A DNA stretch of 64,000 nt from Eledone cirrhosa. Lineage: Eukaryota; Mollusca; Cephalopoda; Octopoda; Eledonidae. The DNA is taken from assembly GCA_964016885.1 (NCBI GenBank), contig OZ024742.1, forward strand, positions 119,758,016 to 119,822,015, written 5' to 3'. The position numbers and the translations under genes are program-made. The notes beneath the pieces were generated by a model. It worked only from the letters and a program-made list of their open reading frames with translations. It made no database searches and was not told where the DNA came from. Positions 16,741-56,573 of the stretch are shown one piece after another. Positions within the stretch are counted from its first letter, which is position 1. Each line of letters begins with the position of its first letter.

Positions 16741-16872
16741 ATATAGACATACTCAATGGATTAGGATGGTCAGCACAACTTGATAAAGTTTTTGAAGAGA
16801 ATTACAGAAAAAATAATAAGTTGCTGTGGCAGTATTTTGGAAGCCAAAGTGGCTTTATGAGAATGTATCCTG
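16741..16872 (+). CDS. CACNA2D: alpha2/delta exon: end of VWA_N region
   Basis: 132 nt, acceptor TTTACAG before it and donor GTAAAT after it. The first two bases finish a codon begun upstream; it then reads [17 protein letters not shown] and on to [20 protein letters not shown], ending with one base of the next codon. This matches the alpha2delta block in which a tryptophan (LLWQ) and the FGS turn precede the VWA domain. It is the first exon of the gene I could find; the preceding exon (usually carrying a VPTxVY-like stretch) was not seen in the 16.7 kb upstream. Confidence 0.93.
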
Positions 16873-19778: not shown

Positions 19779-19838
<60 letters not shown>

Positions 19839-20277: not shown

Positions 20278-20314
<37 letters not shown>

Positions 20315-25463: not shown

Positions 25464-25494
<31 letters not shown>

Positions 25495-26858: not shown

Positions 26859-26902
<44 letters not shown>

Positions 26903-35900: not shown

Positions 35901-38900
35901 TTAGCCTTAGGTCTGCTCTAATTGAACAGAGCTATGGTCAAAGGCATTTTAGCTGTAACCATCCCATTTTCCCCACACATACTATAGCCAAAACTATATT
36001 GTACTGTATGGTCATCCATTTTCTTAGATGGTAGTATGTAAGTTGAGGGAGACTTGGTTGCTATTTATAGCTGATCGAAAAACCATTAGATGCTCCCTCA
36101 TATCTAAGACTAGTTGTTAAATACATTGCATAAGGGTAATTTCTTTAGTAGTAAACAAATATTAAATAGTGGTTTGTTTTATGAATACTCTGTTTGGAAA
36201 GGTTATTTATTCTGACAACATCAAAATGAGATGACCTACTGCAAATGGAATTATTCCAATTTATGGCTTTAGTTACTTAATCTGCTACATTAGAATAATT
36301 TTCAGCTGTTTTTTTCCTCTTTGCCTATATAAAATGTGTTTTGTAAAACATATCTGCTCTTTTTCATCTTCAATTAAGACATCATTTCACATTTGTCAAT
36401 TCCTGTTTTTAAACCCTGTATAAAAGATTGCATTTTTAGGAATGACCTTATTCCATGCATGTTCTATCAAGATGTTTTAAAACATTAAAATAACTTCTTT
36501 GTAAGCATAAAATTGAGTTCCTGTCATAGTTTTTAACTCTAAAACAGTTTGTAAACATTCACTGTAGGTCAACCCGTTTTCTTCAGAAAATTAATAAAAA
36601 AAAAAAGAGAAAACGTACTAATTCAGCTGTTACTATTACTGCTGTTATTATTACTGCATTTACTAATGTTCATACTGCTATTACAACTAACAACTATCAG
36701 TATGCCTAACACTACAAATAATAATAATAATAATAGTTGTTTCTACTTTTGGCACAAGGCCAGCAATTATCCCAATACATTACTGGTACTTTATTTTATC
36801 GACCCCATAAGGATGAAAGGCAAAGTTAACCTTGGCAGGATTTGAACTCAGACCGTAAAGGGCCGTAACTCTATGCTGAAAAAAATGTATCCAACCCTCT
36901 ACCGATACTGCCATACCACTACCCTAATAATAACAATAATGATTTCTAATTTAAACACATATCAAGCAATTTTAGGGTGGAGGAGGTCAATTAAATTATC
37001 CCCAGTACTTGACTAGTACTTTATCTTATCAACCCTAGAAAGATGAACAGCAATGTTAATCTTGATGTGATTTAAACTTCAGATGTAAAGCATCAGAACA
37101 AAAAACTGATTGGTTGATGCGTTAACAATTCTGCCAATCCATTACCTTAATATAACGGTTTCTGATTTAGGTGCAAGGCCAACAATTTTAGGGGGAGTGG
37201 AAAGTCGATTAAATCAATTCCCGTGCTTTACTGGTACTTTATTTTATCGACCCTGCAAGGATGAGAGACAAATTAACCTTGCTGGGATTTGAACTCGGAA
37301 TGTAAAAGGCTGTAACTATATGCTGCAAAGCATGTTGTTCAATACTCTACCAATACTATAATAATAGCATTAAGTCAGCCAAAACTTTGGATGAAATTTG
37401 AAAATTATAGGCCCCAAAAGATGAATTCTGAAGTCACTCTGCTCATAGGATAAAATAATTGTTTCTACTTTAGGCACAAGGCCAACAATTACCCAGTGCA
37501 TTACTGGTACTTTATTTTATTGACCCCGTAAGGATGAAAGGCAAAGTCAACCTCGGCGGGATTTGAACTCAGATCGTAAAGGGACGTAACTATGCTGGAA
37601 AGCATGGTGTCCGACCCTCTACTGATACTGCCAATCCACCGCTCATAGGATAAAATTAAATACTGCAAGACATTTTCTTGGTGGCTCAACCAATTCCGAT
37701 TACCACTAATAATGATAGTAATAATAGTAATAATTACAACAATAATAATTGTTTCTATACTTGCTTAGCTTTTCCTTTAAAGTTGGCTTATTATGTTGGC
37801 TCCTGTATTTAACTGGCAAAGTTTGAACTCATAATGTAAAAGGGATGTAACTAAATACCCCAAAACCATTTTGACCAACCCTCCAATGGTTCTACCTATC
37901 CACCACCCAAATGATAATAATTGCAATCATGAAGTTTAAAATATATTAGGAATTCTGGAGTGTTTTCTGGTACACTAAATATAATGCATATTTCTTTTTA
38001 TGATATAAAGTGTCTTCGTTAATGATATTTTCAAACCAGCAATAAAAGATTATTGATTAAAGAAAGAAAACAGCATGAAAGGAATTTCACGAACAAAAAT
38101 TTTCTCTTATTTATTAATTATATGCAAAAAATAAGAATCGATGCATATTTACTACAAAATATCTAAATAAATGATTTCATTTATTACTGAATTTAAAAAG
38201 AAAATGATTATAAAAATTTTACTTTTGAAAAATTTATCATTTTTTAAAAACAATGTTTGATATTTTGGTTGCAATCCATGTAAAATATGTTGGTACTGCT
38301 ACGTGTAATGTATGTGACTTAAGCTCTGCTTGCTATGTTATTTATTCCAGCACTATATAGGAGTTCTAGCTCGACCTTTGGCCCTTAATCATTCTGAATA
38401 CATCAAGTGGGCTGGGGTTTACCAGGATAGCCATGTAAGCTGGCTATTACCTCTTCCTTCTACAACTTATATTCCTATTCACTAGTTATCAACACAATGC
38501 TATGCCACATGTTTTCTTTCTTTTCCTACTGCTTGTTTGCCTTACGCTCTAGTTTCTTTACACAATTTTATATTTGTCTCTTTTTTTTATGTGTGTGTGT
38601 ATTTTTGATCTCTTTCTTTCCCCACATACAACTGCTTGCATATTTTTTTATGAAATATTTTTTGTATGTATTTACCATCTGTTGTTACACCTTTTGTAAG
38701 TGTGTTTCCTGCTGTCTTTCTCTACATACTGCATTGTGGCACTATCTTTATTGATGTCAAGTGTACCTGATTTTAGCCTGAACCAAAAAACAAAAAAAAA
38801 CAAAAAATGATGTGTGCGTATTTCTTTTATTATTTTGCTGGTTTCAGTCATTGGCTTGTGGCCATCCTGGAGCACTGCCTTCAAGGATCTTCAAGCTTCA

Positions 38901-40649
38901 TTTTGACCTCTGTACTCATTTCAGTCTAGTATTTATTTTATTGAAATCTATTTATCAAATAAATAAGTTGTGTGTTTGACATAAAGGGACATAACACACT
39001 GGTTTACACTGGTACACACACACATGCAACATCTACTAAATTTAAATTCAAATATATAGAATTACTATCATTCCACTTAAAAGCATCAACAGCTTCAGTA
39101 GAAGACACTTGCCTAAGGAGCTGCACAGTGGGATTGAACCCTCAACTATTTGCTTGTAAACTTCTAAACCACATGGCTAAGCTTGCACATATGCATAATG
39201 CTGAAGGAACTAGCTTGTCATGTTCCTTTTGGATGATGTTTTCATAGTCTCTGTTCAAGAAAAGACTAGCATGAGGTGTTTAAGTTTTAAGTGGATGACA
39301 CTGTGCCATGGAGCATTAAAGAAGATTAAATGGTGGTATAATTTACCTGTGTTGTAATAAGTGATAGTAAGCTTATCCTTAATATAAAAGAAAAGAGAAT
39401 GGAGATATAACTCTCCCTTTGGTTTGATGTATTTTCATTGCAGTTTGTTTGGCTGATAGTGGAGGGTTTAAAATTTCCTAACATTAAATTGCATGTTGCT
39501 GTCTTCAGGCTACTTGTTGCTTTTAAGTCTCATTGTGTGTATGTAACATCATCCAGATTCTTGATTGCCTGTGATATTTTCGTATCATCAGCATAGCTAG
39601 TGAGAGCAGCTGCCTGTATAATTGAGTGTATGTCTGAGTGAGCTACTACAAACAACAGCTACTCTAAGTTCCCTGGTGGATTCCATTGACTATTTTATTT
39701 CTTTTGTGAGGACACCACAAATTGCAACTGCCTTACTTCTGCCTCTTAAAGAAGTCATATAGCACTTCTCTAGTTTACCGACTATGTCGAGATCTCACAG
39801 TTTGTGACATATTATTCTATGATAAACTTTATCACAGGGATTTGTAAAGTCACGATAATATATCCACTTTTGATATCCACCTGATGATAGCTCTGTTTAC
39901 CTTTGGAAGAGAATCTGTAGTGGTTTTGCTAAATCCTATTGAGGACTAGTTACTGAGTTTAAGCTCATTTCATCTGTGTATGTTATTTCATTTTCCTCCT
40001 TAACATCCATATAATTGAAGATTACCATTTCTCTATGTAGAGAAGTAGAATCAAAGAACTCATCTGGCTTATTTATTAGTTATTTATGTGATCTCTCAGT
40101 TTGAAGTAGCGACTCTAACTGACGTAACTCTGATCTCTGACCTATGCACTCTATCAAGCAACGTTACTTCACAGACCCTGTTGGCATTATATAAATTTCT
40201 TAAGTTATATCAATGTCTTTTATAAGGACTTTCAGACCTATTTGGTTTGAGGATCTCTTTCTCATTAGCTCTTTCCGTGTGGAGAGCATGTGTGGTTTCC
40301 ATCAGACCAAACATTGTTAGTGCAATGTTGTGGTCCAAGAAAATCATCTGTGCCACCTTCACACTTGAAGCTGAAATCGAGAATATTTTTACCTCTCATT
40401 GGATAAAGTTGTATTTGTTCCAAGAATAACAAGTTAGATAGATAAAGCTGAGACCCTGATTCTCTTTTGTTCATACAGCAACATTCCTGAGAGAATGTGA
40501 CCTTCAGGTCATTTGAAATTGGAGAGCTTGAAGTATCTCAAGAGAAGTATTGAAGTGTTGATCCAATTTAGTCAACACACCCTCCATTTTTCAAAGTCTA
40601 TCTTCAAGTATATCTTTGATTTGAAACATCTGGTAGATATGTGGGAGCC

Positions 40650-40699
<50 letters not shown>

Positions 40700-41020
40700 A
40701 TAAGTGGCAGTTACTCACAAGCTACAGATTTGTTCAAGCCTGTTAGTAGGCTTCTTGCTCTTTTCTGTCTAAAACTGAATGCTAATTGTATTGTTTAATA
40801 TATATATATGATGTTTATGTATGTAAGGCATCTAATATTATAAGTGTGTTTATCAGCTTGCCTATGTATTTAATGTTTGATTAATATTAACATTGCCAAA
40901 ATATCCCAGAGTGACATTCTACATTGAATGCATTACACATAGATTATGAAGGATTATAGTAGAAATGTGGTTTCATTAATGTTCTTTTCTCTGAAGTTCT
41001 CTCTGCTGTCTCTCTCTGAG

Positions 41021-41054
<34 letters not shown>

Positions 41055-41077
41055 TATATACAGGTACACACACACAT

Positions 41078-41114
<37 letters not shown>

Positions 41115-42434
41115 CTAGGGCGGATAAAATTCCCGAGATCCATGGACGAGTTCTCTCCAGCGGTCTCTGTCCCTCATTATCGCTGCCATGTCCTTCGTCT
41201 CCAACAGACCAGTGTACTGTCCTTAGGGCATCAACATACGTTAACCTTGGTCTTCCTCTTCCAGTGTGTCCATGTAGGGGCTCCCACAGGAGCACTGAGT
41301 GCAATGTCAACTCTGGATGTCGGTGAGCATGTCCAGCTAACCTCAGTCTCCTCTGTGTCACTTTTGAGCTGACTTTTGGGAGGCTCCCATACAGCTCTGA
41401 GTTTTTCATCCTCAGTGTATATATAAGTTGTGTAATGTTTGTATTAAATAAATATACATTAATCAGTATATATATATATATATATAGTAGATATGTGTGT
41501 AACTACAGTTATATGCAGTTCACTGGTTAAAGCACTCAATATTGTTACAAGGGTTCATCTCATGTGAGGTTTATATTTCAATATACTCCAGGATTAAGGC
41601 AACTGTAATATGCAGAGTGTAAATACAGGTAAGCAGGAACAAAGTCAAAGTTGCACCATAAATAAATGTGCCTATGAACTTGAACTCACATATCCAATGA
41701 GATGTTGATGTGAAGTCGAGCCCCGATTATGATCAGAACCTGGGCTGATCAATATCAAAACAATTGTTATCTGCAATAAAGTTTATTTATCACAATTGTT
41801 TTGATATTGATCAGCCCAGGTTCTGATCATAATCGGGGCTCGACTTCACATCAACATCTCATTGGATATGTGAGTTCAAGTTCATAGGCACATTTATTTA
41901 TGGTGCAACTTTGACTTTGTTCCTGCTTACCTGTATTTACACTCTGCATATTACAGTTGCCTTAATCCTGGAGTATATTGAAATATAAACCTCACATGAG
42001 ATGAACCCTTGTAACAATATTGAGTGCTTTAACCAGTGAACTGCATATAACTGTAGTTACACACATATCTACTATATATATATATATAGTTATTTAATGT
42101 ATATTTATTTATAGATATATATAGTTATTTAATGTATATTTACTTATAGATATATATAGTTATTTAATACAAACATTACACAACTTATATATACAGTTAC
42201 TGGCTAGTTTCATGTAAGGTGTAGATTACTTTATTACAGACAATATATTTGCATCTACTGAGGAAATTTTCAAACCTTAATGTTCACAAACAGTGGATCA
42301 GTAAATTGTAAGAAAAAAAAAATGAGAATTGTATATTATTTGCGAGTAGAGATTTAAAATGATATTTATTTTCCAATGAAATAATCTGCACAAAACATGA
42401 AACCAGCCAGTAACCTTATATAATGTTATATTTA

Positions 42435-42505
<71 letters not shown>

Positions 42506-43842
42506 GTAGGCACCTACATGTATGTATATAAGTGTGTATCTTTGTGGATGCAAGCAAGTCCAAATAGTTAGGAAGTTTGCTTTGCAATCATACAGGCCTT
42601 GGTTTGATACCACTGTGTGTACTCTTGGACAAGTGTCTTTTACCATATCCTTGGGTCGACCCAAGCCAGTGAGTAAAATTAGATAGCAAGAAATTGTGTG
42701 GGATTTTGTCAGATAGATTGTGCCTGTTATTCCATAGTCTAGCCTTGTCATATAAAGTAAGAGAAGGGTACATGTGTCCATGGGATACTCATTCACCTGC
42801 ACGATGATTAAACAGCTGAGTGCGCATCACTGAAACTGACAGAAGATCCACCATGTATGTGCCTGTATGTTTGTATATATGTATATATAAAGATATATAT
42901 ATATATCATCATCACTGCTTAACGTTTATTTTCCATACCCGCATAGGGTAGATGGCCTGTCAAATTATGAAGTCAGCCAAGTCAAGTGCCTATGTCTTGT
43001 TTATACAATCTGTTGAGATTTTTGTTTTCTATGACTGGATGTCCTCCCTAACATCAACCATATTACAGTGTGTACTGGAAGCTTTTTTTTGTGCTACCAC
43101 CACTACCACTTTACAACGTGGAATGACACATTTTTAAAATGTTTATACCAATAGTTGTTTTCTTAATATCATACATTATTATATTGACCCTAGTACTATT
43201 TTATTGACCATTCATTAATCTCACAAGGCTAAACACATAGCTCACTTCTTGACCAATGGTTGTGAAAACAATGGCGATCCCATGCTGTTTAGAACAGCCA
43301 AATAAAAACCTTGTCAGAATAAAAGCTTTGGCTGGAGTTAACATTTGAGACATTGTAATGCAAGATAATAGTTTTATTAAAGAAACAAAGTACATCAAAC
43401 CTAGAGCTGCACTGTAAACTGCCTATTAAAATGTAGTTTGAAGTTATGTGTAATTATAATCAGTAATATGGATATAAGGTATATGCATCATATGAGATAC
43501 ACAGATCATTGAGTTATGATGCATAGTTGTGAACAAACTCAATATGAAAAGAAAATCTGGTTTTACAAACCGCTAGTGTAAACCATCTCATAGTATACTT
43601 GTCTATCCTAGATAAATGCTTCATATAGCATGCTCTGCCAATTGAACTATGTCTCAAATATAGTGTTGGTGGAAACGTTTTGCTGCAACCACTACATTAA
43701 AATGCACACAATCAGCAGTCATAACTAGGCTATGCTGTCAATGCAATATGAAAGATGTGCAAGGACCAGTACTCTCACCAGTACATTAGTGCTTGATGCT
43801 TGATGCCAAACCTCTCACTTTGAATAGGGGTTTTCTGCACTC

Positions 43843-43883
<41 letters not shown>

Positions 43884-46800
43884 ATATATATATATATATG
43901 GAATAAACTTCTAGAAACTACAGTTATGGCAATCGTAGTGGTTTAAATGGAAGTTTTTCAAAAGCACCATACATTGTTACTTTCATATACAATAATGAAA
44001 TGAGCCATTGATTGGGTTGTTGAACCCTACTCTTTCTGCCCGTATATTCAAATATGTTGCGATAAAAACAAACCGTGTGTGTGTGCACACCAGTGGTTCT
44101 CTAATTGTGTGGCATAGTATACTGATGTGCCATGAAATATAGTTAGATGCACTGAAAAAATAAAATATCTAAAAAGTACAAAAAATAAAAACTGAAGTTC
44201 TAAATATAAATTCTTTATCTATGCCTCATTTATTGAATAAAGAAATATTTTAAATCACTTATATTTAAAGGTTAAAATATATAAATACCATGATTTGATA
44301 TATTTTTTATTTATGTAAAACATGTGCTAAAATATATCTATTTGCTGTTGAGTGTGAGTAAAAAACATTTTAGAATCACTAATGCATATATAAAATAGTT
44401 TCTGATAAAATAGTGACATGTTTAATGCTTTTAGTCTAGTTTAGAAACTGAGGGCAATAAAATATATCATTGGTTTTATTTGAATATAAATGTATCATCT
44501 ATTTTTTTCTTATAAATATTCATAAGTAATACATTATCTGAAAAGAATAGGTTTCTTAAATTAAATTCAGTTTATGTAAAAGAATTTCTGAAATATAAAT
44601 ATTATATTACCTTCAACTTAACTCTGGAGTGATTTCATGTTAAAGTTGAAATATTCATAAGTTTACATATACCAAATTAATGCTATATATCTTTTGATGT
44701 TTTAAAAATATTTGAGTTATATTTAGTTTCTTATTTTTTCTAAACTTTCTTAGTATCTAAGCAAAATGTAAAACGTATTGGTAATCCATTGTATGAAAAG
44801 TATTTTATTCACAACATAGTCTTGAGTAGTTTTTTAATATGTAGCATGTATATTAGAGATATTTGTTAAATACATTAGGGTGAAACAAATATATTAATTT
44901 AACATTAATTATATCTGTTTTAAATATATTACTCAAAGCAACTATTCAATTATATATAATTATATCAGGCTAAAACAGTTTCTCTTAAACCAGAGTTCCA
45001 AGCACTTTTGTTATGTCCTTTTTCACTTATTATGCTAGTTACCCAGCTTATTTCATTTATTTCTCACTTGCATCAATTATCACCCCATCATTCCTTTTAC
45101 GGATCTCACAGATTGGTTCCAAATGAATATCACATAATTGTTATTTAAACATTTGTTGTTGTTTTTTTTTTCATAAATATTCAAAACTTTACTTTCAGCT
45201 ATAATCAAGCCAGGTGCATATCACAGACATTTTGTGATTTATGTTTTGATAATTTCTTTTATTTCATTTAATACAACTTTATAATATTTCACTCTATCCA
45301 GACATTTTCTCAAGTTTTTATGTGGATTTTTTTGTTAAAATTTGATTTTATGAATATTTTTTGTTGATGTTTTTATAAAACATTTTGTTGCATCTGTATT
45401 ACCTACAGGAGTTTTTGAAGCATATGGGTTTTCCAGAAGATGACACTGAACAATTTCATTGGTCTCTTGGACTAGATCGTTCGGTAACATTTAATACTTA
45501 TATAGCTGGTGAAATTTATAAGTTTAGGGTTGCTTCTACTGCTGCAAATACCCACTGTTTTCTTTTAAAGAAATGTTAATGTTTTTTTTTCTCTTCTGCT
45601 AAAATGAACATTGGCATGTCTTCTCAGTCTATAAGAATCATTAACTTCTTTAGAAATGTTTTAGTAAATAATATTTCTTTCATATATTTCATAAAACTAA
45701 GAATACACTACCATATAAGGCTATAATGATGTAAACTTTTCTCAAATATACACAACCAGTAAAATGTTTCAGATAAATTATTTTGAATATGAATAAGTTT
45801 CTTCCCTGAAGACCTTCTGGTGTCCAGTTCTCCTGAGAGTTTGTTACCACAGCACTAATTTTACCTTTCAACAAAGTAATGAAAGGTAAAGTTTGTGTAA
45901 CTGAGATTTAAAATCAAATCAAATTACCCATGTATTCACATAGATATATATATGCAAATTTCTGTAAATACATGGCACAACATTAAGTTTAAAATGTATT
46001 TATTATATATATTTGTACATTATTTGAGAAAAATGAACACATAGTTCCTTACTGTATGTTAATTGTATTCTTTGTTTGGTCTGCTAGAAAATACAGATGA
46101 TTATTCTAATTGATTTATAAAACTGTAATGGCATGGTGGAATTGCTTTCAGGATTATTATTCAAATATTATGAAATTGTGCACATTTGACTGGGTGTGAT
46201 AATTTTTGGTGGTGGATATTTGATAGTCATCATAATTTAGTAGCTTCTCTGAAACTAAACGTAATTATATGCATATTAAAAAAATATTTCTGTATCTTCT
46301 ATTTATCTATTCATCATTGCTTCTTCTTTTATCATTACAAAAAGGATCATGATCAACTTTTAAAACATTTTGACTCAAATTGGTTTCAGTTCAAAATAAG
46401 GTTCCAGCATTGAATTGTTGTACATAATATGAAATAAAATATTCAGTGTCTTCCCTAGAACACAATACATTGCTGGCAAAGTGGTACAAACTTATGATTC
46501 TTCAGTTACAATCTAATCTCTATTCACAGTCATTGCAAACCTTCATGAATTTTCTCACTCATTTTAACTTTTTGGAGACATATTGTATTGTTACCTTACT
46601 ATACTGCTTTACTTTATATCCATTGCAGTATTTAGTCTTATCTTTTTATGTTTTGACTGCATCATATGATTATTGGCAAAATGAAACAGGCACCAGGTAT
46701 GCTGAGATTGTGTATGAACTGATCAGTTAGGTAATACATCTATTTTGAAAGGTCAATTTGGTCATACACTGAACTTTTGTCTTACGTTGAAATATTAGTT

Positions 46801-49800
46801 AAGAGTTAGTGACTTGATTGATAAACAAAACTGTCAAGAAACTAATGACTTATTTGGTAGTTATAGTTATTATTTATATTGAATTTTTTATCCCTCGAAT
46901 GAATAAATACAACTCAGACTTTAAATCCTATATGTAAACAGACTAGTTTATTAGTTATATTTGTGTAGCTTTCTCTAGACAAAGGGAAGTAGCTGGAGTT
47001 ACTTCCTGTTGAATTCTAGGTAGGAATTATAAAAGAGGGAGAAAAGAGACATCTTAGCCTTTTGGCGACCGGCTCTCGGACAGTTCACTCACGAGCGAGT
47101 TTGGTATAATCTTATATCTGTATCGAATTAAATTAGTGGTTGGCCTGCAGTGGTGTTTACCAAAGTAAATAACCCTGTGACCAACTCACTAAAGTGGTGA
47201 CCCCGACATGAGTGATGGTCTGGATGCCAGCGCAAATGGTTGGTTTTAACTGTTTAAGGGAAAGTCTGTTGGTTTATATTATATAGATATATAATATATA
47301 TATATGTGTGTTTCTTTTTTCCAGGGCCAAGTTGGCGGGGTGGGTTTATTACTAATATCAACATTTAATTAATTAACAATGATACATTTCAAACATTAGA
47401 TATCAGTAGAAATAAAAAATTGTCCAAGTAGTTGGGACTCCAGAAAATCTTATTGCTAAACAGTTTGCATATAGGAAATAAGAAAATGGTTTTGTATATA
47501 ACTATGGTAAATGGAGAGAAAATAAAAATTAAGTTTCAAATTTGCTGAATCAGTATTGTTATTATTTAGTTGTGAAGCATTTTGTTAGATATCAAAGATT
47601 CTCGGTAAATTGTTCTGTTAAATAGTTTATATAAATATATAAATATGGGAAAATTAAATACTTGCAATAAATAATAATTGAATAAGCTGAATGTTTTATA
47701 TGTCAATTAATTAATTCTATTTGCTCATACAGGCAATGGGCTAAAGGATATTTATATATAACATTAGAGGGGAGCTGCTTCTTAAAAAATGATCTAGTGT
47801 TTTACAAAATAGCTTTTTTTGTTTTCAAAGCACTGTAAGCTTGCTTTATTTTTTTTTATGGAAGTAGGCATTTGGTTAGCAGGTGTATCTATCATTTTTC
47901 CATTGTATCTAAATAGGCTATTTTTAGATGAACATTTGTTATGTCTTTTTTGTCCCTAACATACATGATGCACCCTATTCAGCAATTGCTTTTTAAATAT
48001 AATAAATTAAATATAATAAATTAAATTAGGTAAAATACTGTTTAGTAGTTTGTGAAGAAAATATTATTTCATCAATTCCTCTTACATTTCCTATCCTCTT
48101 CTTGCAAGTGGTGAATGGTGACCTTTTGGTATACCTAAATCTTTAAACTATAATAATTTTCTACTTTTTCTGTCTAAAAGCATTGTTGTTAAGATCTCCA
48201 GTGTTTCTCCAATCTTGATAATACAGAACTTTTTTCAGTAAGTTTTTTCCCAACTATATAACAATTTAATCAAGAAGGCTTAAGTCATATTATTATATAC
48301 ATTAAAGTCATGTTCTTAAATAAATAACAGTATTTTGTTATTTTCTCAATAAGTGAAGTATAAATTTACTGTTTTTAAATAAGGCCAAAATTATGGATTT
48401 AGACACCTTAATGCTTTGTTGTTTACTTTTTCTATTAATCTTCATTATTGTTATGATGATTGGCATGCTGTTAAAAATTTAGTGTTTGCATAGTTACAAC
48501 CAATCTACCTCTATTGCTTGGGCATGAGTTATGATATACGGTGCATATAAAGTAGAATGGCTCTTACTAAAACTGAATAAAAATTTATAAAAATTTATTC
48601 TATAATTCCTTGCAAAACTGTTTCTAAAATATGCACTATAAATATTTCTAAAAAATGTATGTTAGAATTTTCCCTACATTTAATTTATAAGTTATAAACA
48701 CAAATTGCTTTTGTTATAAATTACATTATTATGTACACCATAATTTAGCTTTTAGTTTTCAGTAAATTGAGTCCACAAACTTAATTTCCTTTCTGGTGAA
48801 AACTATTTTTCTTGCGTTTTAAAGACACCGAGAGAAAGCTGAATGTAAGAATGTGAGATTTCTTAACCTTTATAGATATAATAATTCACAACATTGTAAA
48901 AGATATTATCTATATTTAGATATTACCTATTCAACTAATTTTATCAAAAATACTAAACATTTTATTGGAATTAATGCATTTTCTTAAAACAGCTACAGTA
49001 AAACATCTTCTTATGCAGTTGTTGTTTAACCCCAGCTTGACCATGATCAAGCATTCCTATGATCAACAGCATACCAACTATGACCATTCCATCTTTTTAA
49101 AGGAGTGCATTATCAAATATATTCTTTTATTATAAGATGCTAAGGTTTTATTTGAGAGAGAAATATCTAATCACATAGAACTTTCCATATTGACTCCCTG
49201 TTACACTAATTTTAGATTGAGTTGCTATCATAATATTTATGAAAGTAACATGTGTAATTGCTGATTATAAATTTTTAATTACCATGTAATGATTGCAATT
49301 AATTGGTTATCTGATGGATAGTAGTATTCAATATCAACTAGCTACAAAAATCTCTATTTCATATGTGTGTGAGTGTGTGTGTGTTTGAGAGAGGGGGAAG
49401 AGAGCAATATATATTAATATCATGTATATCTCTTAAATTGTTTCCATTTGTTGGTTTCATATAAATTGTAATTTTCTTTACCCTGTTTGATAGCAAATCT
49501 TCTTAACGCATTCCTGGTTCTACAAAACAAAGCTGTTAATTTTAAAATATTTAATTATAGTTCTAGGTAAGAACTTTTATGTTGTATTCCAGACACCAGA
49601 TAAATAATGAGAAAATTAGTTATGTTACTAAATCATTCCAAATTATTGAATGTCTTCAAAATTATTTGAAAATCATAGACAATGTATTCCACTAAAAATA
49701 TGGTAATGAAAGGGTTAATTATAATAAAATATAACACAATATGCAGTTGATAAGGTTATACCAAACTTTGACATCTAAATTATTTTCTTCCTCAGGAAAC

Positions 49801-52800
49801 ATGTTAGTTCTTTCAGTTTATCTAGCAAAAGCTTACATTTCATTTTTTCATCATAATTGTTCTCATTTGGGCAAATCACTCAAGTACAAAGCAACATTGT
49901 ATGTACTCAGGTACATTCAACATTGCATGAGGATGTTTGAAGCTTGACAGCCATCCAGCAATGGTAACATTTTGGATAAATCATTTTTCTAAATTTTTGT
50001 TTACCATTAATATTGCTATTCCTGAATTTTATTGCACAACAGAAATAAATGAATGGAAATTATATACTTAAAATAATTAAGCGATTGTGTGTACATTGCT
50101 TTCTTACACCCTTAGTAAAATTAAATTGAGCAGAAATGATATAGCAATACTATTGTCATCAGCTACAAGGATAAAGCAATGACGAATTTAGCTCACTGGA
50201 AATACAGTTTGATATGATGCAGTTTGATTTTTTTTCTTTTGAATATAGAACCATTAATAGCATATTTATAATGAACTAGCTTCAAAAGTAATTGACAAAG
50301 AATGAATGAATATTAAAACTATTTAAAAGTTTCAGGTCTATGTTCTTGCGAGGGTCTATGTGCCAACACTTGGTTCACCTTGTAAAGTCTATGAGCAAAC
50401 TGCAACAAAAGCTTAAGTTGTAGAAGTGAGAGATAATGTCATAATCTGAAGGTAAAATATTCTACGAATAAGAGACTAATTAAAGGCCTGGGCTACAATG
50501 TCTAACAAGTTTAAAGAATGTTGATTTTTTTTATGTCCAATGCAAAGGAAGAAATTAATTTCATGTTTCAATACTTATTCAATACTATTGTGTTGAATGA
50601 TTGGTAACAAACCTTTTGGTGTGCCATATATACTTGTGTAAGAAGCGTCATATACATTGGAGAACAGGTGACTGTGACTGGATCATTGGAAATAAATTTC
50701 TAGATTTTGAACTATCTTTTGTTTTCACACAAGTTGAAAGTAAAATTTGTTTTTAGTAACACAATATCTCTGCATTCAAAATACGAATAGAAAGTATATT
50801 ACATTCTAGTAGAATTTGAGCAATGAAATCAAAAGATGTGTTATGATTAGAGAGAAAGGCATTCCAATAAACTGGAAATGTATAAGAATATTAGAATTAA
50901 TGTGTGATAAAATCATGCAAGAGATGACTATGTGAAAAGTTTACATAAGCTGATTTTAGAAACCAACATAGGATAAAGGATGAACTAGAGTTTATCTTAG
51001 AAAGTTAGACTACTCACATCAGGTGAGACAAAATTGAAATGTTTGAAATGTCATGCTACAGATCCATCTGCTTCGTGCCAACATAGGAAAGTTGATGTAA
51101 ATTATTGATTTTTCTTTTATACGATTAACATTATTAGACTGGTTCGACTTTCTTCAATACATATGTTTTTCATATTATGGAATGGAAAATTTACGTGATA
51201 AATTTTTTGTAGTAAAATCCATTCAATTTTGTTAATAAAAATATTTTTTATTGATAATCCTTCCGGCAGCAAATATATTATGATAATCTGTCTGATTGAT
51301 AATTTTACATAAATTTATTTCATATTTACGTTTAACACTATTAACGTAATCAACTACTAGGCCATATAATGTTGGTTGTTTTGTTTTTTTAGATTAGCAG
51401 GGAGCATCATTAATTTCATACTCAATTTTTTACAATTTTTACTTAGCTTCTCACAAATTATATTCAGTAATGTTGTCCTTATATAAATCTTAGTTCCCAC
51501 ATTCTGATGTCAAATTCTTTTTATTACCCACGCAGGGAAAACTTCTATTTCTTTCAAGTCCTGAAAGCTGTATGAAATATACTACCAGTAATAATTTGAA
51601 CACCACTCCAACAGAACTTGCTACAATTTAAAGGGTGAGACCTTGAATTATGTGTCCTTTCTAGCAATACATATTTTCTCTTTATAAGATGGAAGTTTAA
51701 AAAGGAATTGGTTTCTAATCTCAACAGATTGAGCAAACATTTAGAGGCTTCTCCTTTGCTGGCTTCCGTCTCTATGTAGAAGCTGCTTTGGTGGCAACCA
51801 TATAGAAGCAAGCATATAGAAGCTTTCTAGTTGGCTTGAGTGACTCTGTTGAAGATTCCTTATTTACTTAAGCAAGTGCAAAGAAACTCCCTCATTAGAA
51901 CAAAAGTAATGATTTACTCCCTTCAACTAATCTGAAAAGTGATTATATATTATGTCTGCTTACTGGTGTGTCTTATATGGGAAGTTAAAATATTTGTACC
52001 TATCTTCCTCACTAAATGTTAAACTCTATAATATAGGACAGTATGAACAAATTTTTCAATATTAAAAAGGGTTTACACTCCTTTGAGTTCTTTCTATCAC
52101 TAGGTTGATTCCACTTTGCTTCTAATATTTTTATCATACATTAGGAAGAATTTAATGTTGATGCTTTTAATTCACAAGAGGAAATATAAATACATAGCTT
52201 TTTTATGATTATTTATAAAATAACTGTATTAAATCTGAAACTTTCAACAAGTTATTTTAAATAACATAGCCTTATGTTTTGATCATATTTCAGCTGACTT
52301 TAAACCATTATCTAGTTCCTTCTGATGGATTATTAAATTAAAGCAAACTGATTAGTAACCAAGAAAAAATGAATGCTTTAACATACATTGAGGCATTCTA
52401 TTTTTAGAGCAAAAATCTAAAGGTATAAAGTTATTTGTATTTACTTTGTTTAACAAATGCAAAATTAGCCATGTGTTCAACTCTAATAAACAAGTAGTCA
52501 TAGATTTACATGTTTCTCTATTAAAAGTAATAATGTTCATTCAATTATGTTCTGAATGGATAATTTAAAATATGTGTAAAAGCTCCAAAAATACTTATCA
52601 CCAAATATAATAACTGTAGTAACAAATCATTATTCAATTAGTAGCAAAGAATTACTTATATTTATTTAAATTTCAAATATAGCTTTAAAAACAAATATGG
52701 TTATTCAATCTGATTGTGTTGCTATTTTCTTATCTCTTGTCTAAATATGATTTTTAAAATATTAAGATTTTAATAAGCTATAATGATTGTGATGTTAATA

Positions 52801-53968
52801 TACTTAACCAAAGATTACATGGTTTAAATGTTACTATTGCCAGTGTGTTGTGTGTTTAGGTAAGCTGCCTAACTAAAGTTCCAGTTCTATTTCTCTGAAC
52901 CAGCTGAAAAATTAAATTGAAAATCAAAATCTAAATTGATATAACTAAATACTGCAAACTATTTTGTCTAACACTAATCTAATTCTATAAATCCACCACA
53001 CATTTAAACTTATTAATCATTTGAAATGGTTGAAATACACACAATTGAAAAAGTTACAAAAGTTATCCCAAGGATAAAAGTCAAGACTTATTTGATTTAC
53101 ATAGAAATGGGGAATGTTTAAAGGGTTTTCCAGAAAATGTTAGAATAATTCAGCATAAAAATTTCAAACTTTTCATGTTACTAGAATATTTCAGAAAAAG
53201 TTAAAGATGTAACCATCAGCCTCCTACAAAATAACCTACAACTGTAACTTTATAGCACATGTATGTTTAAATAATTTTAAATATGCTAAATGCATATTCT
53301 AATTTTGAATAAACTTATTCAAATGCTGGCTGACCATTATCCTGTTATAAGATCAGTTATTTATATTATGTTAGTAATATCAATGATTAGATTACTTAAT
53401 TTCCAATTTTGTAATAGTTAATGATTCTACTATTTAAATATATTTACATAAAATGCTTTAGGTTTTGAAATAGTAAATTGTTGAATATTATAAATATATA
53501 TATAGATATTTAACTGAAAATTAACCTATATCTATACTGTGTGGGTGGGAATGGATGTTGGAAACATGAGTTTTGGAACAACTTTGGAAGTTTTCTATCA
53601 ATGTTTTCGAATTTGCAGATTTTACTAATATCTGTAAATACTGTCATATTATTATTATACATCAGCGTGAAGGAATTCATATAAAAAGATGTCTAATTCC
53701 AATGATGGAAAGTAGAATCTGCAATTTAGAAAAGCTTAATGGTAAGCTACTGAAATTGCTTTACACATTCATTTCAATACAATATGCTTATATGCTTCAA
53801 CACTATTTGCTTTATATATGTATATATATATATATATATTAATATATATTAATATATATATATTAATATATATTAGTCCAGAAATAGCCGTCGAAACGGC
53901 TTGAGCTCTGCCGTCAGGGTCATACTTTTTCCTATATAATATATATATATATATATATTAATATATAT

Positions 53969-54061
<93 letters not shown>

Positions 54062-56573
54062 ATGAACACTTATACTGCAGTAATATTGATAAAATATTTT
54101 GTTTTTAATGATTTTTTTAGAATATTTATATCCATATTCTGTGTTAGACAATCATCAACTCTCTTCACAAGGGGCCTTGTTATCATGCCTTCACCTAAAT
54201 AAATTTGCTGTGAATATTTATATTAAGTTTTTCAGTACTTTTATTTGATACCCACTGATCATTTGATCCACAAATTCTGTTCACTCCACTCTTATCATGT
54301 TTACTGAATGTCTATATGATTGAACTTTTCTCTTTTGCAGAAAAAAATATCTGATCTTCATAATTACTAGTTGTCTTTATAGCTTATCTAAACATTCTAT
54401 CACTTTTGATTTATTATAGATATATCTAATCATATTGGCTCTTCTTTCTAGACTTTGTTGATCATCTATATTTAATGCTTCTTTTATGCCTTTTTTTATG
54501 AAGAGAAAATCCCACAAACATCAACATCTTTTCTTTGAACATCTCCTAATCAATTTTGGCTTGTATTATTCCATTATGTATTGATCAAGACCCTTACATA
54601 ACATATCTCTTATCTGTATTTTACTATCTTGGGGAAGGATTTTTGCCATAAGACTTGTATGCAGTATCAGCCTTCTCATTTTATAACTGCTGCTTTTTAA
54701 TCAACTCATTGGTTGTATTACTTTTGAAGGCTATCAATATTTGTCTTTGTGAACTTTAGAAAGAAAAACACTCTAACAGTTTCATCAAAAACAGTATTTG
54801 TTCTTTCCTATATATAGAAACTAACAAGTCATAACTCTGATGCAATTTGCTATCCTAATGAGAGTATGAAATAGTTTCTGTTACAATTAGACATATTTCA
54901 ACTGTCTTATTTATTTTGGTTTGGTATATATTTTTTCTAGTTAAATTGTTGAAAACGTTTTAGTCAAAACTGTGGACATGTAGTCTCATACATCATGTCT
55001 AATTGGAAAGGAAAGAGTTTTAAAGTTTAATACTACAACCTAATGAAAATTTTCCAACGTTTTAATAGCAGAATGTTTCACTTCATTACATCAATACCCA
55101 TACTACTTACCATGTCTGAAAATATCTCATTTGCAATGATGACTTTCTGTACAAAATTCTCATTTCCAGTATTTGATTCTGCAATAACGTTCAGCACATC
55201 ACTTTTATACTTCGAAACAATCCTTCCAAGATCAGCTTTAAAAACTTTCTTAATTTATAACGTGATACTAAACTTCTTTTTCTATTTATATATTTTTTAA
55301 AAATATAAAATGTTTTATTGTAAAAAATGCAAGTGCCTTTTGTGGTTATGAAAACGGAAAAGGCTTTAGGGTCAAAGAAGAATGGGAAGGGTGATGGGCA
55401 TAGGGTGCGACAGTATTGGGGCTGTGCTCCATGGACAGGACAATGGCTAGTGTCACCTGATGCAACAGCCGCACCACCTTGCAGAGCTCCTTCCTCAGAT
55501 GAGCGGCTGATGTTCTGATCTTGCAGAGGAGCTCAACAATACGGGGTCCAAGTATGCCTGAGGTCTCGACAGTGACCAGTCTGAAAAGGAAGTGGCCAGA
55601 CAATCCCCAGTATTTGTTTATCTTCCTTTCCTCTGCATTGCGGGCTGTGGTACCAGGGTATGTGGCCAAAGCGACTAAGTTGGAGGCGGAGAATGTGTCA
55701 CAATATGTAGTGTCTAAGATGAGGGATCTACTTCCTTTGAATGGAAGAAGGTAATTCCATTGGGGTGCTTGCCATCTCCAGTTGTGATGGGAAGCCATCT
55801 GTATCGAGGCTCCTTCTCAATATGTTGTTGAGAGCGGCATGATGGGGGAACCAGACTGTGCTCTGATTGCAAGACAGTGGGTGCAGGCCTCTTTCAATTG
55901 ATATATACTGTAATGGAATACTATTTTCTATGTCAAATATTTTGTATAATTTTTTTTATCTCAGTCTTGGGGATATCATAAGGAAAGAATTTAAGTATGT
56001 TTTCTCTCTCCGCAAGTTAGTTGATTTCTATTGTTTATATTACTAATAATATTGCGAATTCTACTGTTTCTATAAGCTTCCAAATGTTCGTAAATATTAC
56101 ATAATTTACAAGACACTGGTATTTCAGTGTTAATTGATCATTGTAAACAATTTCATTATTCCACACTCCTTTTTACTATTCACATATATTAAATGGAACT
56201 GACTGACATCATAAGGAAAACTATTCTTTAATGTTTATTTAAATAAGTTATAAGGTTTTGTCATTTTTATACCATTTTGAAATTGCTGCTCTATATAACC
56301 TCACTCTGTATCTTGTTTTTATTCAGAACTAACAGAATTGTTTGTCATTATTTTCTTTTTATTAAGATAAACTTTCTGTTCCTTTTTTTAGAAAGACATT
56401 AATGTAAATTCCATTTTTAGTATCGCATTGGATATTTTACAATGTAATACTTTGATTTGGCTAACTTGAAAACCTTGATTTGTTCAAAGGAATATCTTCC
56501 TGTTCTCAGTCGACCATTGGTGCTAGACAATGCCAAACACAGTGAGTGGGTGAACATCTATTCTGACAAAATG
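16741..56573 (+). CDS. CACNA2D: Calcium channel alpha2/delta subunit gene, internal exons (partial)
   Basis: Alpha2/delta is an extracellular, membrane-anchored auxiliary subunit of voltage-gated (Cav1/Cav2) calcium channels that promotes channel trafficking and synaptic function. Nine exons (16741-16872, 22012-22069, 23959-24009, 25122-25221, 26682-26753, 28777-28866, 30696-30821, 33711-33789, 34511-34560) join in one frame to 252 whole codons, followed by alternative 84-nt exons at 38351 or 56490. In order they give the end of VWA_N (LLWQYFGS), the RRR motif ([10 protein letters not shown]), a full VWA domain (DTSGS MIDAS, LLTDGG), and the VWA-Cache linker. The order is collinear with vertebrate alpha2delta-1/2 as I know it, with no missing block. 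DVRRRPW separates it from alpha2delta-3/4, which lack the arginine triplet. Signal peptide, Cache domains and delta part are not in the window. The family call is very secure; exact orthology (1/2-like) is inferred. Confidence 0.95.
17369..17715. mobile_element. MITE with 28-bp terminal inverted repeats
   Basis: 347 bp. The ends 17369-17396 (GATATATGGTGTGTTTATAA and on) and 17688-17715 match with one mismatch, and looser pairing continues inward to about 50 bp (AGCTTCAGCTATG against CATAGCTTAAAGCT). No transposase. Confidence 0.8.
17864..19375 (+). mobile_element. LINE fragment, endonuclease plus RT, inactive
   Basis: It shows the APE endonuclease end ([13 protein letters not shown], then [19 protein letters not shown]), the linker ([30 protein letters not shown]), and RT blocks [33 protein letters not shown] and [14 protein letters not shown]. 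It stops shortly after the first catalytic block, so YADD and the C-terminus are absent. Several frame breaks. It directly follows a LINE tail repeat at 17750-17863. Confidence 0.85.
19787..19833. repeat. (CT)n microsatellite
   Basis: About 46 bases of TCTC, followed by a TA run. Confidence 0.95.
19885..20280 (+). mobile_element. LINE 3' ORF end, copy 2
   Basis: Diverged copy of 11980-12370: both start GTGGAAAA(A/T)ATTCCATCAGC, share ATGATGTTGGCATCA and TTTAACATTACACCAAAA, and end in TGGCC(A/G)AAACCTATCA then TATATA. This copy has more stops. Confidence 0.75.
20277..20310. repeat. (TA)n microsatellite
   Basis: TA run after the LINE end, as at the sister copy. Confidence 0.9.
22012..22069 (+). 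CDS. CACNA2D: alpha2/delta exon with RRR (gabapentinoid-site) motif
   Basis: 58 nt between TATTGCAG and GTAAGA. It encodes [19 protein letters not shown], with split codons at both ends (Ala at the start, Trp at the end). The DVRRRPW motif lies just before the VWA domain. In mammalian alpha2delta-1/2 the third arginine of this triplet is needed for gabapentin and pregabalin binding; alpha2delta-3/4 have no triplet here. The triplet is intact in this gene. Confidence 0.95.
22425..22785 (-). mobile_element. LINE tail and tRNA-like SINE head
   Basis: GATGATGAT then CATCATCATCATTTTACGTC, CAGCTGGATGCCCTTCC and GTGAGTGCTGGGTGC (LINE tail family), followed by AAGTGTCTTGCTCAAGGAAA and GAATTGAACTCACAACC (box B on the minus strand), then CTAACCACTAAGCCATGTGC (box A). 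It looks like a SINE whose tail was borrowed from the LINE. Confidence 0.75.
23473..23600. repeat. MITE-like repeat, AATGAAAGG end
   Basis: Shares CAAAATTATTTGAAAATCAT and GACAGTGTCTTTCATTAGAA-like sequence with 49590-49716, and ends in AATGAAAGGATTAA. Confidence 0.6.
23959..24009 (+). CDS. CACNA2D: alpha2/delta exon: start of VWA domain
   Basis: 51 nt, acceptor ATTGTCAG, donor GTAAGT. It completes the Trp codon and reads [16 protein letters not shown], then two bases of a Thr codon. The hydrophobic strand MMIIID ends in the first MIDAS aspartate, so the metal site DTSGS is divided between this exon and the next. Confidence 0.95.
24010..25121 (+). other. Intron (1.1 kb)
   Basis: AT-rich; I see no element or gene in it. 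Confidence 0.85.
25122..25221 (+). CDS. CACNA2D: alpha2/delta exon: MIDAS SGS and VWA helix 1
   Basis: 100 nt, acceptor TTGTTGCAG, donor GTAAGA. It completes the Thr codon, then [18 protein letters not shown] and [15 protein letters not shown], ending in phase 0. With the previous exon it forms the metal-ion-dependent adhesion site DTSGS, which in mammalian alpha2delta is required for channel trafficking. The motif is complete. Confidence 0.95.
25222..26681 (+). other. Intron (1.5 kb)
   Basis: A TAG/TAA triplet tract at 25376-25530 (including AATAATAATAATAATAATAA), a purine tract to 25590 and a TATG/GAGA tract near 26300-26375; otherwise plain. Confidence 0.85.
26682..26753 (+). CDS. CACNA2D: alpha2/delta exon: VWA domain, [12 protein letters not shown] segment
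   Basis: 72 nt (24 codons, phase 0/0) between TTTTTTTCCAG and GTTAGT. It reads [15 protein letters not shown] and VQANYRNKK. The cysteine and the VQANxRNKK run are hallmarks of alpha2delta-1/2. NDT is a potential N-glycosylation site. Confidence 0.94.
26840..26900. repeat. (CA)n microsatellite
   Basis: Run of about 40 bases of CA preceded by ACACGCACACGCGC. Confidence 0.95.
26920..27560 (-). mobile_element. LINE RT thumb fragment (LRKVWG type)
   Basis: The minus strand reads [19 protein letters not shown], a stop, then [20 protein letters not shown] and [10 protein letters not shown]. This is the thumb region after the catalytic box (usually LRKxVWxxRGIxxxTKLKVYxAxVLxxLLY). It belongs to the same broad family as 285-1115. 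Many stops. Confidence 0.7.
27962..28158 (+). mobile_element. tRNA-derived SINE (octopus OR-like)
   Basis: GGATTGATTGGCAGTATTGG head, GTTCTAATCCTGCC box B, GGGTTGATAAAATAAAGCACC body, GCTGGCCTTGTGCC end. Confidence 0.85.
28190..28435 (-). mobile_element. LINE C-terminal fragment
   Basis: The minus strand is open for [19 protein letters not shown], then [20 protein letters not shown] and [13 protein letters not shown], the (Y/W)xGHxxRM ... GRPRxRWLD end of a non-LTR retrotransposon protein. Confidence 0.75.
28436..28690 (+). mobile_element. LINE linker fragment, sister of 18560-18790
   Basis: Open for [40 protein letters not shown] and [10 protein letters not shown], matching the linker of the LINE at 17864-19375. 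It abuts the oppositely oriented C-terminal fragment at 28435, an apparent inversion junction, and ends about 85 bp before an alpha2/delta exon. Confidence 0.8.
28777..28866 (+). CDS. CACNA2D: alpha2/delta exon: VWA helix ([11 protein letters not shown])
   Basis: 90 nt (30 codons, phase 0/0), acceptor TTCTACTAG, donor GTACGG. It reads [20 protein letters not shown] and [10 protein letters not shown], collinear with the alpha2delta-1/2 VWA helices. NLT is a sequon. The exon lies only about 80 bp downstream of a LINE remnant (28436-28690), so the retroelement landed next to the acceptor. Confidence 0.93.
29290..29570 (-). mobile_element. tRNA-derived SINE, second type
   Basis: AATTGAACCCACAACTTTAT (box B, minus strand) and CTTACCACTAGGTCACGTGC (box A), with the body containing CAAGAACACAACACACAACC and CCGGTGCTTATCCC. 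Confidence 0.7.
29856..30512 (+). mobile_element. Internally deleted Tc1/mariner element
   Basis: The termini TACTTGGCGTAGCAATAAAG and the reverse complement of TTATTGCCACGCCAAGTA form inverted repeats of about 25 bp next to TA. Inside are a transposase N-terminus ([17 protein letters not shown]) and a C-terminus ([20 protein letters not shown], then [12 protein letters not shown] and a stop), with the catalytic middle missing. It is about 660 bp, against about 1.3 kb for a complete mariner. Confidence 0.8.
30696..30821 (+). CDS. CACNA2D: alpha2/delta exon: LLTDGG strand of VWA
   Basis: 126 nt (42 codons, phase 0/0), acceptor TTCATTATAG, donor GTATGT. It reads [20 protein letters not shown], then [19 protein letters not shown] and NKT. 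TDGG supplies the last MIDAS aspartate. Sequons NKS and NKT are present. The insert KQNGVGAQ is longer than the corresponding mammalian loop. Confidence 0.95.
30953..31640. repeat. 53-bp minisatellite, 13 units
   Basis: The unit is TTTAATATACAGTATATCTA then GGTCCACATTTACCAATACA then GTCCTCTTCCTGT. CTAGGT recurs every 53 bases from 30967 to 31603. Units differ by only one or two bases, except at the two edges. The first unit is continuous with an interspersed repeat (TGATTGAACAAACCTATGAT) found at four other places, so the array seems to have grown out of that repeat. Confidence 0.95.
31860..32560. repeat. Unclassified repeat with direct CTTAAGAAAATTAACA ends
   Basis: The 16-mer CTTAAGAAAATTAACA occurs at about 31871 and 32538, each followed by a similar GAGA(A)CAAGGCA-like stretch. 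The interior has TTGGCAGTTTTGACCCCTAC and ATGCCAAAGGCATTGG. There is no coding content that I can support. Confidence 0.4.
33195..33510 (-). mobile_element. LINE-associated C-terminal fragment (WDATC family)
   Basis: The minus strand reads [20 protein letters not shown] and, in another frame, [15 protein letters not shown]. These are the WDATCxDTF and VETxGIxG blocks of the family at 3480-4310 and 55340-55905. Confidence 0.7.
33711..33789 (+). CDS. CACNA2D: alpha2/delta exon: C-terminal VWA strand (WMACSNRG)
   Basis: 79 nt, acceptor TTATTAAAG (followed directly by GTAAGA, which is coding here), donor GTAATC. It reads [20 protein letters not shown] and MACSNR plus one base of Gly. The block VRVFxxxVG and WMACxNxGY is diagnostic of the family. 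Confidence 0.95.
33790..34510 (+). other. Intron (0.7 kb)
   Basis: AT-rich; a short tandem pair of GATTAAGATCTGTAAC at 33848 and 33879 is the only structure seen. Confidence 0.85.
34511..34560 (+). CDS. CACNA2D: alpha2/delta exon: last common exon before the alternative exons
   Basis: 50 nt, acceptor TTTTTTCAG, donor GTAAGT. It completes Gly, then reads [16 protein letters not shown] and ends in phase 0. It corresponds to vertebrate YYYEIPSIGAIRINTQ. The next residues in vertebrates are EYLDVLGRP, which is exactly what the exons at 38351 and 56490 encode. Confidence 0.95.
35895..36130 (+). repeat. Interspersed repeat (CTATGATCAAAGG family)
   Basis: TTGAACAGAGCTATGGTCAA, TGTAACCATCCCATTTT and TTCTTAGATGGTAGTATGTA. 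Related copies: 14578-14690, 30880-30970, 32815-32900 and 49020-49110. Confidence 0.6.
36735..37905 (-). mobile_element. Cluster of five SINE copies, same orientation
   Basis: Copies at about 36737-36923, 36955-37143, 37158-37362, 37456-37645 and 37745-37905, each with GGCACAAGGCC(A), TACTTTATTTTAT(C/T)GACCC, GGATTTGAACTC and CTGCCAATCCA in that order on the plus strand (minus-strand elements). The second and fifth are strongly diverged, the fourth the best preserved, so they are not a simple recent tandem. Confidence 0.8.
38351..38434 (+). CDS. CACNA2D: alpha2/delta linker exon, alternative copy A
   Basis: 84 nt (28 codons, phase 0/0), acceptor TTTATTCCAG, donor GTAAGC. It begins [12 protein letters not shown], has Trp at codon 20, and ends GVYQDSH. 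It encodes the segment between the VWA domain and the first Cache domain (vertebrate EYLDVLGRPMVL and WTNVYLDAL). NHS at codons 13-15 is an N-glycosylation sequon not found in the other copies. It is homologous to the exon at 56490 (10 of 28 residues identical, same length, same phase), so I infer that the two are spliced in alternatively. Confidence 0.9.
39055..39200 (-). mobile_element. tRNA-like SINE head, second type
   Basis: GACACTTGCCTAAGGAGCTG, GGGATTGAACCCTCAACTA (box B on minus) and AACCACATGGCTAAGCTTGC (box A). Confidence 0.55.
39300..40480 (-). mobile_element. LINE reverse transcriptase remnant ([11 protein letters not shown])
   Basis: The minus strand gives [20 protein letters not shown] at 39550-39620, the intact catalytic box of a jockey/RTE-like reverse transcriptase, and further upstream on that strand many diverged RT-like pieces ([28 protein letters not shown]) out to about 40480. 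Heavily interrupted. Confidence 0.7.
40651..40697. repeat. (TA)n microsatellite
   Basis: About 46 bases of TA. Confidence 0.95.
41022..41112. repeat. (TA)n with internal ACACAC
   Basis: Two TA runs around GGTACACACACACATAC. Confidence 0.9.
41105..41410 (-). mobile_element. LINE C-terminal fragment
   Basis: The minus strand is open for about 100 codons: [20 protein letters not shown], then [17 protein letters not shown]. RRLRxAGHxxRHPE and GRGRPxxTYVD is the usual end of non-LTR retrotransposon proteins. This copy is uninterrupted, so fairly young. It directly abuts the foldback element. Confidence 0.75.
41416..42195. mobile_element. Large near-perfect foldback (hairpin) element
   Basis: The left arm 41416-41767 (352 nt) is the reverse complement of the right arm 41792-42195 (404 nt), around a 24-base loop. 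Matching blocks include CGAGCCCCGATTATGATCAG with its complement, and the outer ends GTATATATAAGTTGTG and CACAACTTATATATAC. The extra length of the right arm is a triplicated TAGTTATTTAATGTATATTT stretch. Outside that AT tract I see almost no mismatches. No coding content. It is a foldback or palindromic MITE. Confidence 0.9.
42443..42505. repeat. (TA)n microsatellite
   Basis: About 62 bases of TA. Confidence 0.95.
42545..42850 (+). mobile_element. SINE-type repeat, second type, diverged
   Basis: GTTTGATACCACTGTGTGTA (box B-like), CTTGGACAAGTGTCTTTTAC, CAGCTGAGTGCGCATCACTG and GATCCACCAT line up with the element at 62935-63265. Confidence 0.6.
42900..43130 (-). repeat. LINE tail repeat
   Basis: ATATCATCATCACTGCTTAACG, CCGCATAGGGTAGATGG and GACTGGATGTCCTCCCTAAC, a diverged copy of the tail at 1100-1400. 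Confidence 0.7.
43480..43810. repeat. Possible interspersed repeat
   Basis: GCATGCTCTGCCAATTGAAC and TAGTGTTGGTGGAAACG have the look of a multi-copy cephalopod repeat, but I see no second copy in the window. Confidence 0.3.
43845..43881. repeat. (CT)n microsatellite
   Basis: About 36 bases of CT followed by TA. Confidence 0.95.
45409..45483 (+). CDS. CACNA2D: Candidate divergent linker exon, alternative copy B
   Basis: 75 nt open in the same phase (0/0), acceptor ATTACCTACAG, donor GTAACA. It begins EFLKHMGFP, has Trp at codon 18, and ends LGLDRS. The pattern E-aromatic-L-x-x-hydrophobic-G-x-P, then a Trp, then Asp two residues from the end, follows the two clear linker exons (copies A and C) with three residues fewer. 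Vertebrate EYLDVLGRP has the same E, L, G and P. It is weaker than the flanking copies and could be a decaying or chance exon; the reading frame runs on 96 bases past the proposed donor before a stop. Confidence 0.5.
46870..47230 (+). mobile_element. LTR end and primer-binding site of a Ty3/gypsy (Mag-like) element
   Basis: TATA box ATTATAAAAG at about 47027, then a transcribed-looking region with TTGGCGACCGGCTCTCGG and ending CCAACTCACTAAAG, followed by TGGTGACCCCGACATG at 47195-47210. TGGTGACCCCGAC after an LTR is the primer-binding site seen in Mag-clade elements. No gag or pol follows; the copy breaks off near 47240. The left LTR boundary is uncertain. Confidence 0.65.
49590..49716. repeat. 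MITE-like repeat ending AATGAAAGGGTTAA
   Basis: Shares CAAAATTATTTGAAAATCAT with 23473-23600 and ends GGTAATGAAAGGGTTAA, with a TTAA at the border as in piggyBac-type MITEs. Confidence 0.6.
53820..54060. repeat. Long (TA)n tract with embedded repeat piece
   Basis: TA runs of up to about 90 bases (53936-54037) and then (TG)n, with a 60-base insert containing GCCGTCGAAACGGCTTGAGC. The insert is not TA-derived and looks like part of another repeat. Confidence 0.9.
55340..55905 (-). mobile_element. LINE-associated C-terminal fragment, best copy
   Basis: The minus strand reads [20 protein letters not shown] and [15 protein letters not shown], then after a frame change [39 protein letters not shown] and [12 protein letters not shown]. 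Same family as 3480-4310 and 33195-33510, with all blocks present in one copy. Confidence 0.8.
56490..56573 (+). CDS. CACNA2D: alpha2/delta linker exon, alternative copy C
   Basis: 84 nt (28 codons, phase 0/0), acceptor TTGTTCAAAG (weak, AAG), donor GTATTT (weak). It begins [12 protein letters not shown], has Trp at codon 20, and ends NIYSDKM. It is closer than copy A to vertebrate EYLDVLGRPMVL. There is no N-glycosylation sequon. Its splice sites are weaker than those of copy A, consistent with regulated use. It is the last exon of the gene I can support in the window. Confidence 0.9.

Follow-up and report, generated by a model that had tools for sequence, protein, structure and literature searches.

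Within a 64,000-nucleotide stretch of DNA from the octopod Eledone cirrhosa (contig OZ024742.1; the whole stretch is called the window below), an earlier note described two short, similar exons in a calcium-channel alpha2/delta gene and proposed that each transcript carries only one of them. This raises the questions of whether the two exons are a genuine duplicate pair within a single gene, which part of the protein they encode, and whether both are in use as alternatives.

The Gene and Its Common Exons

Nine exons within window positions 16741–34560 splice into a single frame and encode an alpha2/delta calcium-channel subunit. They were located by tblastn with the human alpha2delta-1 protein as the query, and their boundaries were set by hand, guided by frame and homology. 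The exons, with the evidence for each, are as follows.

16741..16872, + strand, exon e1: end of the VWA_N region; W205 kept, V207 replaced by Y, A215 by M, and Y217 by M; 5′ boundary provisional (tblastn, splice join, PDB alignment, residue mapping)
22012..22069, + strand, exon e2: R241 of the pocket; Y236 replaced by F (tblastn, splice join, residue mapping)
23959..24009, + strand, exon e3 (tblastn, splice join)
25122..25221, + strand, exon e4: together with e3 makes the intact MIDAS, DTSGS (tblastn, splice join, residue mapping)
26682..26753, + strand, exon e5: VWA (tblastn, splice join)
28777..28866, + strand, exon e6: VWA (tblastn, splice join)
30696..30821, + strand, exon e7: VWA; acceptor picked so that the frame holds (tblastn, splice join)
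33711..33789, + strand, exon e8: end of VWA (tblastn, splice join)
34511..34560, + strand, exon e9: last common exon ahead of the alternative pair; ends in phase 0 (tblastn, splice join)

Joined across GT-AG introns, e1–e9 give an open frame of 252 residues that ends ..AIRSKVQ at 34560 in phase 0. When the second of the alternative exons (B, see below) is appended, the product contains the Pfam domains VWA_N (E = 3.8e-17) and VWA (E = 6.6e-14) in that order and matches the alpha2delta-1 chains in PDB with E = 1.4e-88, which bears out the assignment to alpha2/delta made in the earlier note; 143 of the 269 residues aligned in the PDB comparison are identical to those of human alpha2delta-1. The MIDAS is intact (DTSGS, with the D259, S261, and S263 positions conserved), and the arginine triplet reads RRR, with the R241 position conserved. 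Both features are criteria for the alpha2delta-1/2 type (PMC9901441; PMC7426832), and on these motifs the gene is classed as an alpha2/delta gene of that type.

Because every upstream exon has a single tblastn match in the window, the alternative exons look like alternatives of one gene, not of two. A tandem duplication of the gene was rejected on the same ground, with the limit that a much diverged copy would escape tblastn. No match to the rest of the dCache domains, the delta part, or the GPI signal of human alpha2delta-1 was found in the window by tblastn, and these parts are presumably located past it. Open reading frames at 8448–10895, upstream of e1, and at 18159–19374, between e1 and e2, contain a reverse-transcriptase-like motif and are probably LINE remnants. 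A single tRNA match from Rfam, with 36 bits against a threshold of 29, lies between e2 and e3 at 22712–22775 on the minus strand and is possibly a tRNA-derived SINE.

The Duplicated Exon Pair

Downstream of e9 lie the two alternative exons.

38351..38434, + strand, alternative exon A: donor CAT/gtaagc; NHS sequon; His at residue 454
56490..56573, + strand, alternative exon B: weak donor ATG/gtattt; Met at residue 454; the more similar of the two to human alpha2delta-1

The coordinates and splice sites given in the earlier note were recovered exactly: each exon is 84 nt long and in phase 0/0, with an AG acceptor and a GT donor, and either one fits directly after the common exon that ends RSKVQ. 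The homology reported for the two 28-residue peptides (shared Y, V-L, R-P-L, L, W, Y, and D) also stands, with 10/28 residues and 43/84 bases identical between A and B. Their BLOSUM62 score is 66, whereas neither exon scores above 29 with any other ungapped window of 28 codons on either strand. In addition, among 267 open AG-to-GT/GC stretches of 72–108 nt between 34561 and about 63900, scores above 17 were obtained for A, B, and three overlapping variants only. A third copy of the exon is absent from the window in these same ungapped and open-stretch scans.

The equivalent of A and B in human alpha2delta-1 is a single segment, residues 425–454, which at 30 residues is two longer than either exon product (a two-residue gap). 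The statement that vertebrate alpha2delta has one such segment holds for alpha2delta-1 as represented in PDB, the one paralog that the comparison covered. B is the closer relative of this segment (16/28 residues identical, as against 10/28 for A). With the human segment alone as the query, B scores 35.0 bits and A 25.0 bits (about 30 kb searched), and the 17 residues of e9 followed by B match PDB alpha2delta-1 with E = 3.3e-9, compared with 1.6e-5 when followed by A, e9 contributing part of both scores. The exon that takes the protein back into its first dCache domain once the VWA insertion has ended has been duplicated and has diverged. Use of a further in-frame donor (gtatgc), 21 bases beyond the first donor of B (window 56490–56594), could extend B by VFILHLQ.

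Besides A and B, no alpha2/delta exon was recognized in 34561–64000, where a strongly diverged exon could escape. Queries comprising residues 455–560 of human alpha2delta-1 and a stretch of alpha2delta-3 revealed no common exon in the space separating A from B, nor any downstream of B in the window: the best plus-strand match reached 17.7 bits and the best overall, on the minus strand, 21.6 bits, both taken as chance, and control runs of the same search recovered e2, e3, e9, A, and B at 24–35 bits. A and B are therefore adjacent as far as constitutive exons recognizable in this interval are concerned (a strongly diverged one could be overlooked), and the next common exon is presumably located past the window. 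The interval containing A and B has TA microsatellites at 40652–40697, 41021–41109, 42443–42504, 53813–53873, 53933–54037, and 56700–56794.

The Segment as Part of the Ligand Pocket

The dCache_1 domain of alpha2/delta proteins is split by the VWA insertion, with YxxxRxWY as the motif of its first cache and Y...D as that of its second (PMC9901441). To judge from the numbering, the Y of the second half is probably Y450. Alanine scanning has identified 12 residues that are important for mirogabalin binding: Y236, R241, W243, Y450, D452, T461, D491, W205, V207, Y217, W223, and L454 (PMC11308618). The duplicated exon covers three of these positions, Y450, D452, and L454 (human numbering, PDB alignment). 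The term 'VWA-Cache linker' used in the earlier note is therefore incomplete: the exon is not a bare linker and belongs to the pocket region of dCache_1. W446, Y450, and D452 are kept in both A and B, whereas the residue at 454, Leu in human, is His in A and Met in B.

Elsewhere in the protein, W205, W223, R241, W243, and Y244 are kept, and four positions are changed (Y236 to F, Y217 to M, V207 to Y, and A215 to M). In terms of the YxxxRxWY...Y...D motif, R, W, Y244, and Y450 are kept and the first Y is F; the exons seen stop short of D491. The inability of alpha2delta-3 and -4 to bind gabapentinoids has been attributed to a Phe at the A215 position, numbered Ala217 in that work (PMC9901441). 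Given the four changed positions, this protein may have another ligand than human alpha2delta-1, and it may be that neither isoform binds the human ligands, since Y236 is F and Y217 is M.

The best reading of these data, which we hold tentatively and at a little under an even chance once exclusive use is granted, is that splicing would swap one wall of the dCache_1 ligand pocket. A and B would retain two polar contacts and would alter the wall at 454 (His or Met) together with the neighbouring helix and loop. As the Y450, D452, and L454 positions of the amino-acid/gabapentin pocket come from this exon, the isoforms would then be unequal in their affinity for the ligand, in trafficking, or in the boost given to the channel. 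Mutation of the pocket is reported to impair channel enhancement and trafficking (PMC12303104).

A competing account of this step, somewhat less probable and still a serious one, accepts exclusive splicing and leaves ligand binding unaltered, so that the swap would change the surface, glycosylation, or assembly of the protein. It agrees with the identity of Y450 and D452 in A and B, with the location of 17 of the 18 A–B differences outside the three named pocket positions, and with an NHS N-glycosylation sequon that is present in A (38351–38434) and missing from both B and the human segment; against it stands the difference at 454, one of the 12 mirogabalin residues (PMC11308618), which is His in A and Met in B. 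An extension of the pocket-wall reading, in which splicing would switch a neuronal amino-acid sensor from one ligand specificity to another, is rather unlikely: through its dCache_1 pocket, each isoform would sense its own extracellular amino acid, or its own range of concentrations, and would set calcium-channel trafficking to match, with the exon chosen by cell type.

Splice Sites and the Probable Use of One Exon per Transcript

Mutually exclusive exons are predicted from similarity of length, agreement of splice sites and frame, and homology (PMC3228551; PMC3923563). All of them are found in A and B, which are similar in length, compatible in splice sites, homologous, and neighbouring, and which share a frame. 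In a test on the X chromosome of the fly, the same combination was shown by 90 of the 16,180 exons that carry an annotation as constitutive or differentially included, a figure that gives a background rate and not the probability of exclusivity for a predicted pair (PMC3228551). From homology, length, phase, splice sites, and the single human segment, the earlier proposal of one exon per transcript is likely, although exclusivity itself is something that we infer from these features. Each transcript would take A or B because the fold probably accommodates a single copy.

The splice sites of the two exons are unequal. With a donor matrix, A scores 8.0, the nine common exons 6.1–9.8, and B 1.7, by far the weakest of all 11 donors; the A donor beats 98.9% of 1,579 intronic GTs and the B donor only 80%. 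The acceptor of B has 10 pyrimidines among 17 positions (joint lowest with e7) and that of A has 12. We therefore propose that the choice would be regulated, with A, which has the strong donor, as the probable default, whereas B would probably require an activator or repression of A.

As to how exclusion might be brought about, steric exclusion by close spacing is unlikely, since the introns are kilobases long. The splice sites of A and B are alike of the GT-AG class. Exact matches between 1-kb stretches in 10 region pairs gave no convincing signal of intronic base-pairing; two of the 10 pairs beat the shuffles, and these consist of a TA repeat and a purine-rich tract, neither convincing, so that pairing was rejected as the cause. 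Nor is exclusion enforced by the frame, as 84 is a multiple of 3 and joining of A to B would preserve it.

The main rival to the proposal of A as default and B as regulated is a decaying B. More generally, one exon may be dead or decaying and a single one in use, B if ancestral sequence decides and A if splice strength decides; we consider this unlikely. The donor of B, at 1.7 against 6.1–9.8 for the ten others and above just 80% of intronic GTs, is as expected of a decaying B, and the greater divergence of A from human (10/28 identical, compared with 16/28 for B) points to decay of A. However, both exons are open, have their AG and GT, and retain W, Y, and D, and the pattern of identity by codon position (14/28 at first, 19/28 at second, and 10/28 at third positions) favours selection on both exons. 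In simulated neutral drift to 43/84 identity (20,000 runs from each exon, splice-letter retention left out), 0.45% of runs from B and 0.40% of runs from A retained an open frame together with 10 or more identical residues, a result with which the recent loss of one exon is compatible. The exons have a GC content of 45% (A) and 43% (B), and the flanking 500-base stretches 25–34%. By codon-usage score A ranks second and B sixth of 17, the controls being 15 open intronic AG-84-GT stretches, from which the exons are not separated. B would therefore be either a regulated choice or, less likely, a decaying exon.

Joining of A and B in tandem, whether constitutively or as cassettes, would keep the frame, with both exons of 84 nt in phase 0 and with the A donor and B acceptor compatible, but a protein with a doubled segment is very unlikely, as PDB alpha2delta-1 has this segment once, the extra copy would fall within the folded dCache domain at pocket residues, and constitutive exons in this gene do not typically have a donor as weak as that of B.

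Comparison with Known Systems

A and B are a real, open, and probably mutually exclusive pair, a gene structure of known kind in an alpha2/delta gene. Its interest is raised by the place of the exon on the amino-acid/gabapentin pocket. The purpose of a bacterial-type amino-acid pocket in alpha2/delta proteins is still unsettled (PMC9901441; PMC12303104). If the proposed reading is true, two isoforms that differ in one pocket wall would form a natural mutant pair for comparing ligand binding and channel trafficking, and regulation by exon swapping would extend to an auxiliary rather than a pore subunit.

Among the matches listed from a limited set of open-access papers, none was found to describe homologous exons that alternate in an alpha2/delta gene; an annotated isoform pair may well exist. 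'CACNA2D' is absent from the main text of a human survey (PMC5740500), and 'exon' and 'mutually exclusive' are absent from a study of two fly subunits (PMC7426832). An octopus CACNA2D3 transcript has been reported, in an excerpt with nothing on this exon (PMC12919962).

The closest parallels are exons 8/8a of CACNA1C and the exon pairs of Drosophila cacophony, which, like A and B, are homologous calcium-channel exons that recode one structural element, and which are used there one per transcript. Those pairs belong to the pore-forming alpha1 subunit, whereas A and B belong to an extracellular auxiliary subunit, and their exclusive use is predicted from sequence. Splice regions A, B, and C of vertebrate alpha2delta-1 likewise represent alternative splicing inside the dCache domains, and the form without region C has a lower affinity for gabapentin (PMC9901441). 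These regions, however, comprise an alternative acceptor and two cassette exons, described as situated elsewhere in the dCache domains (PMC9901441). Their effect is to insert or delete sequence, not to put a homologue in the place of a segment. Of the universal dCache_1 amino-acid pocket, whose motif is split by VWA, the protein encoded here keeps the R241, W243, Y244, Y450, and D452 positions; it differs from that pocket in having F at Y236 and M at Y217, and in that one portion of the pocket has two coding versions, which place His or Met at 454.
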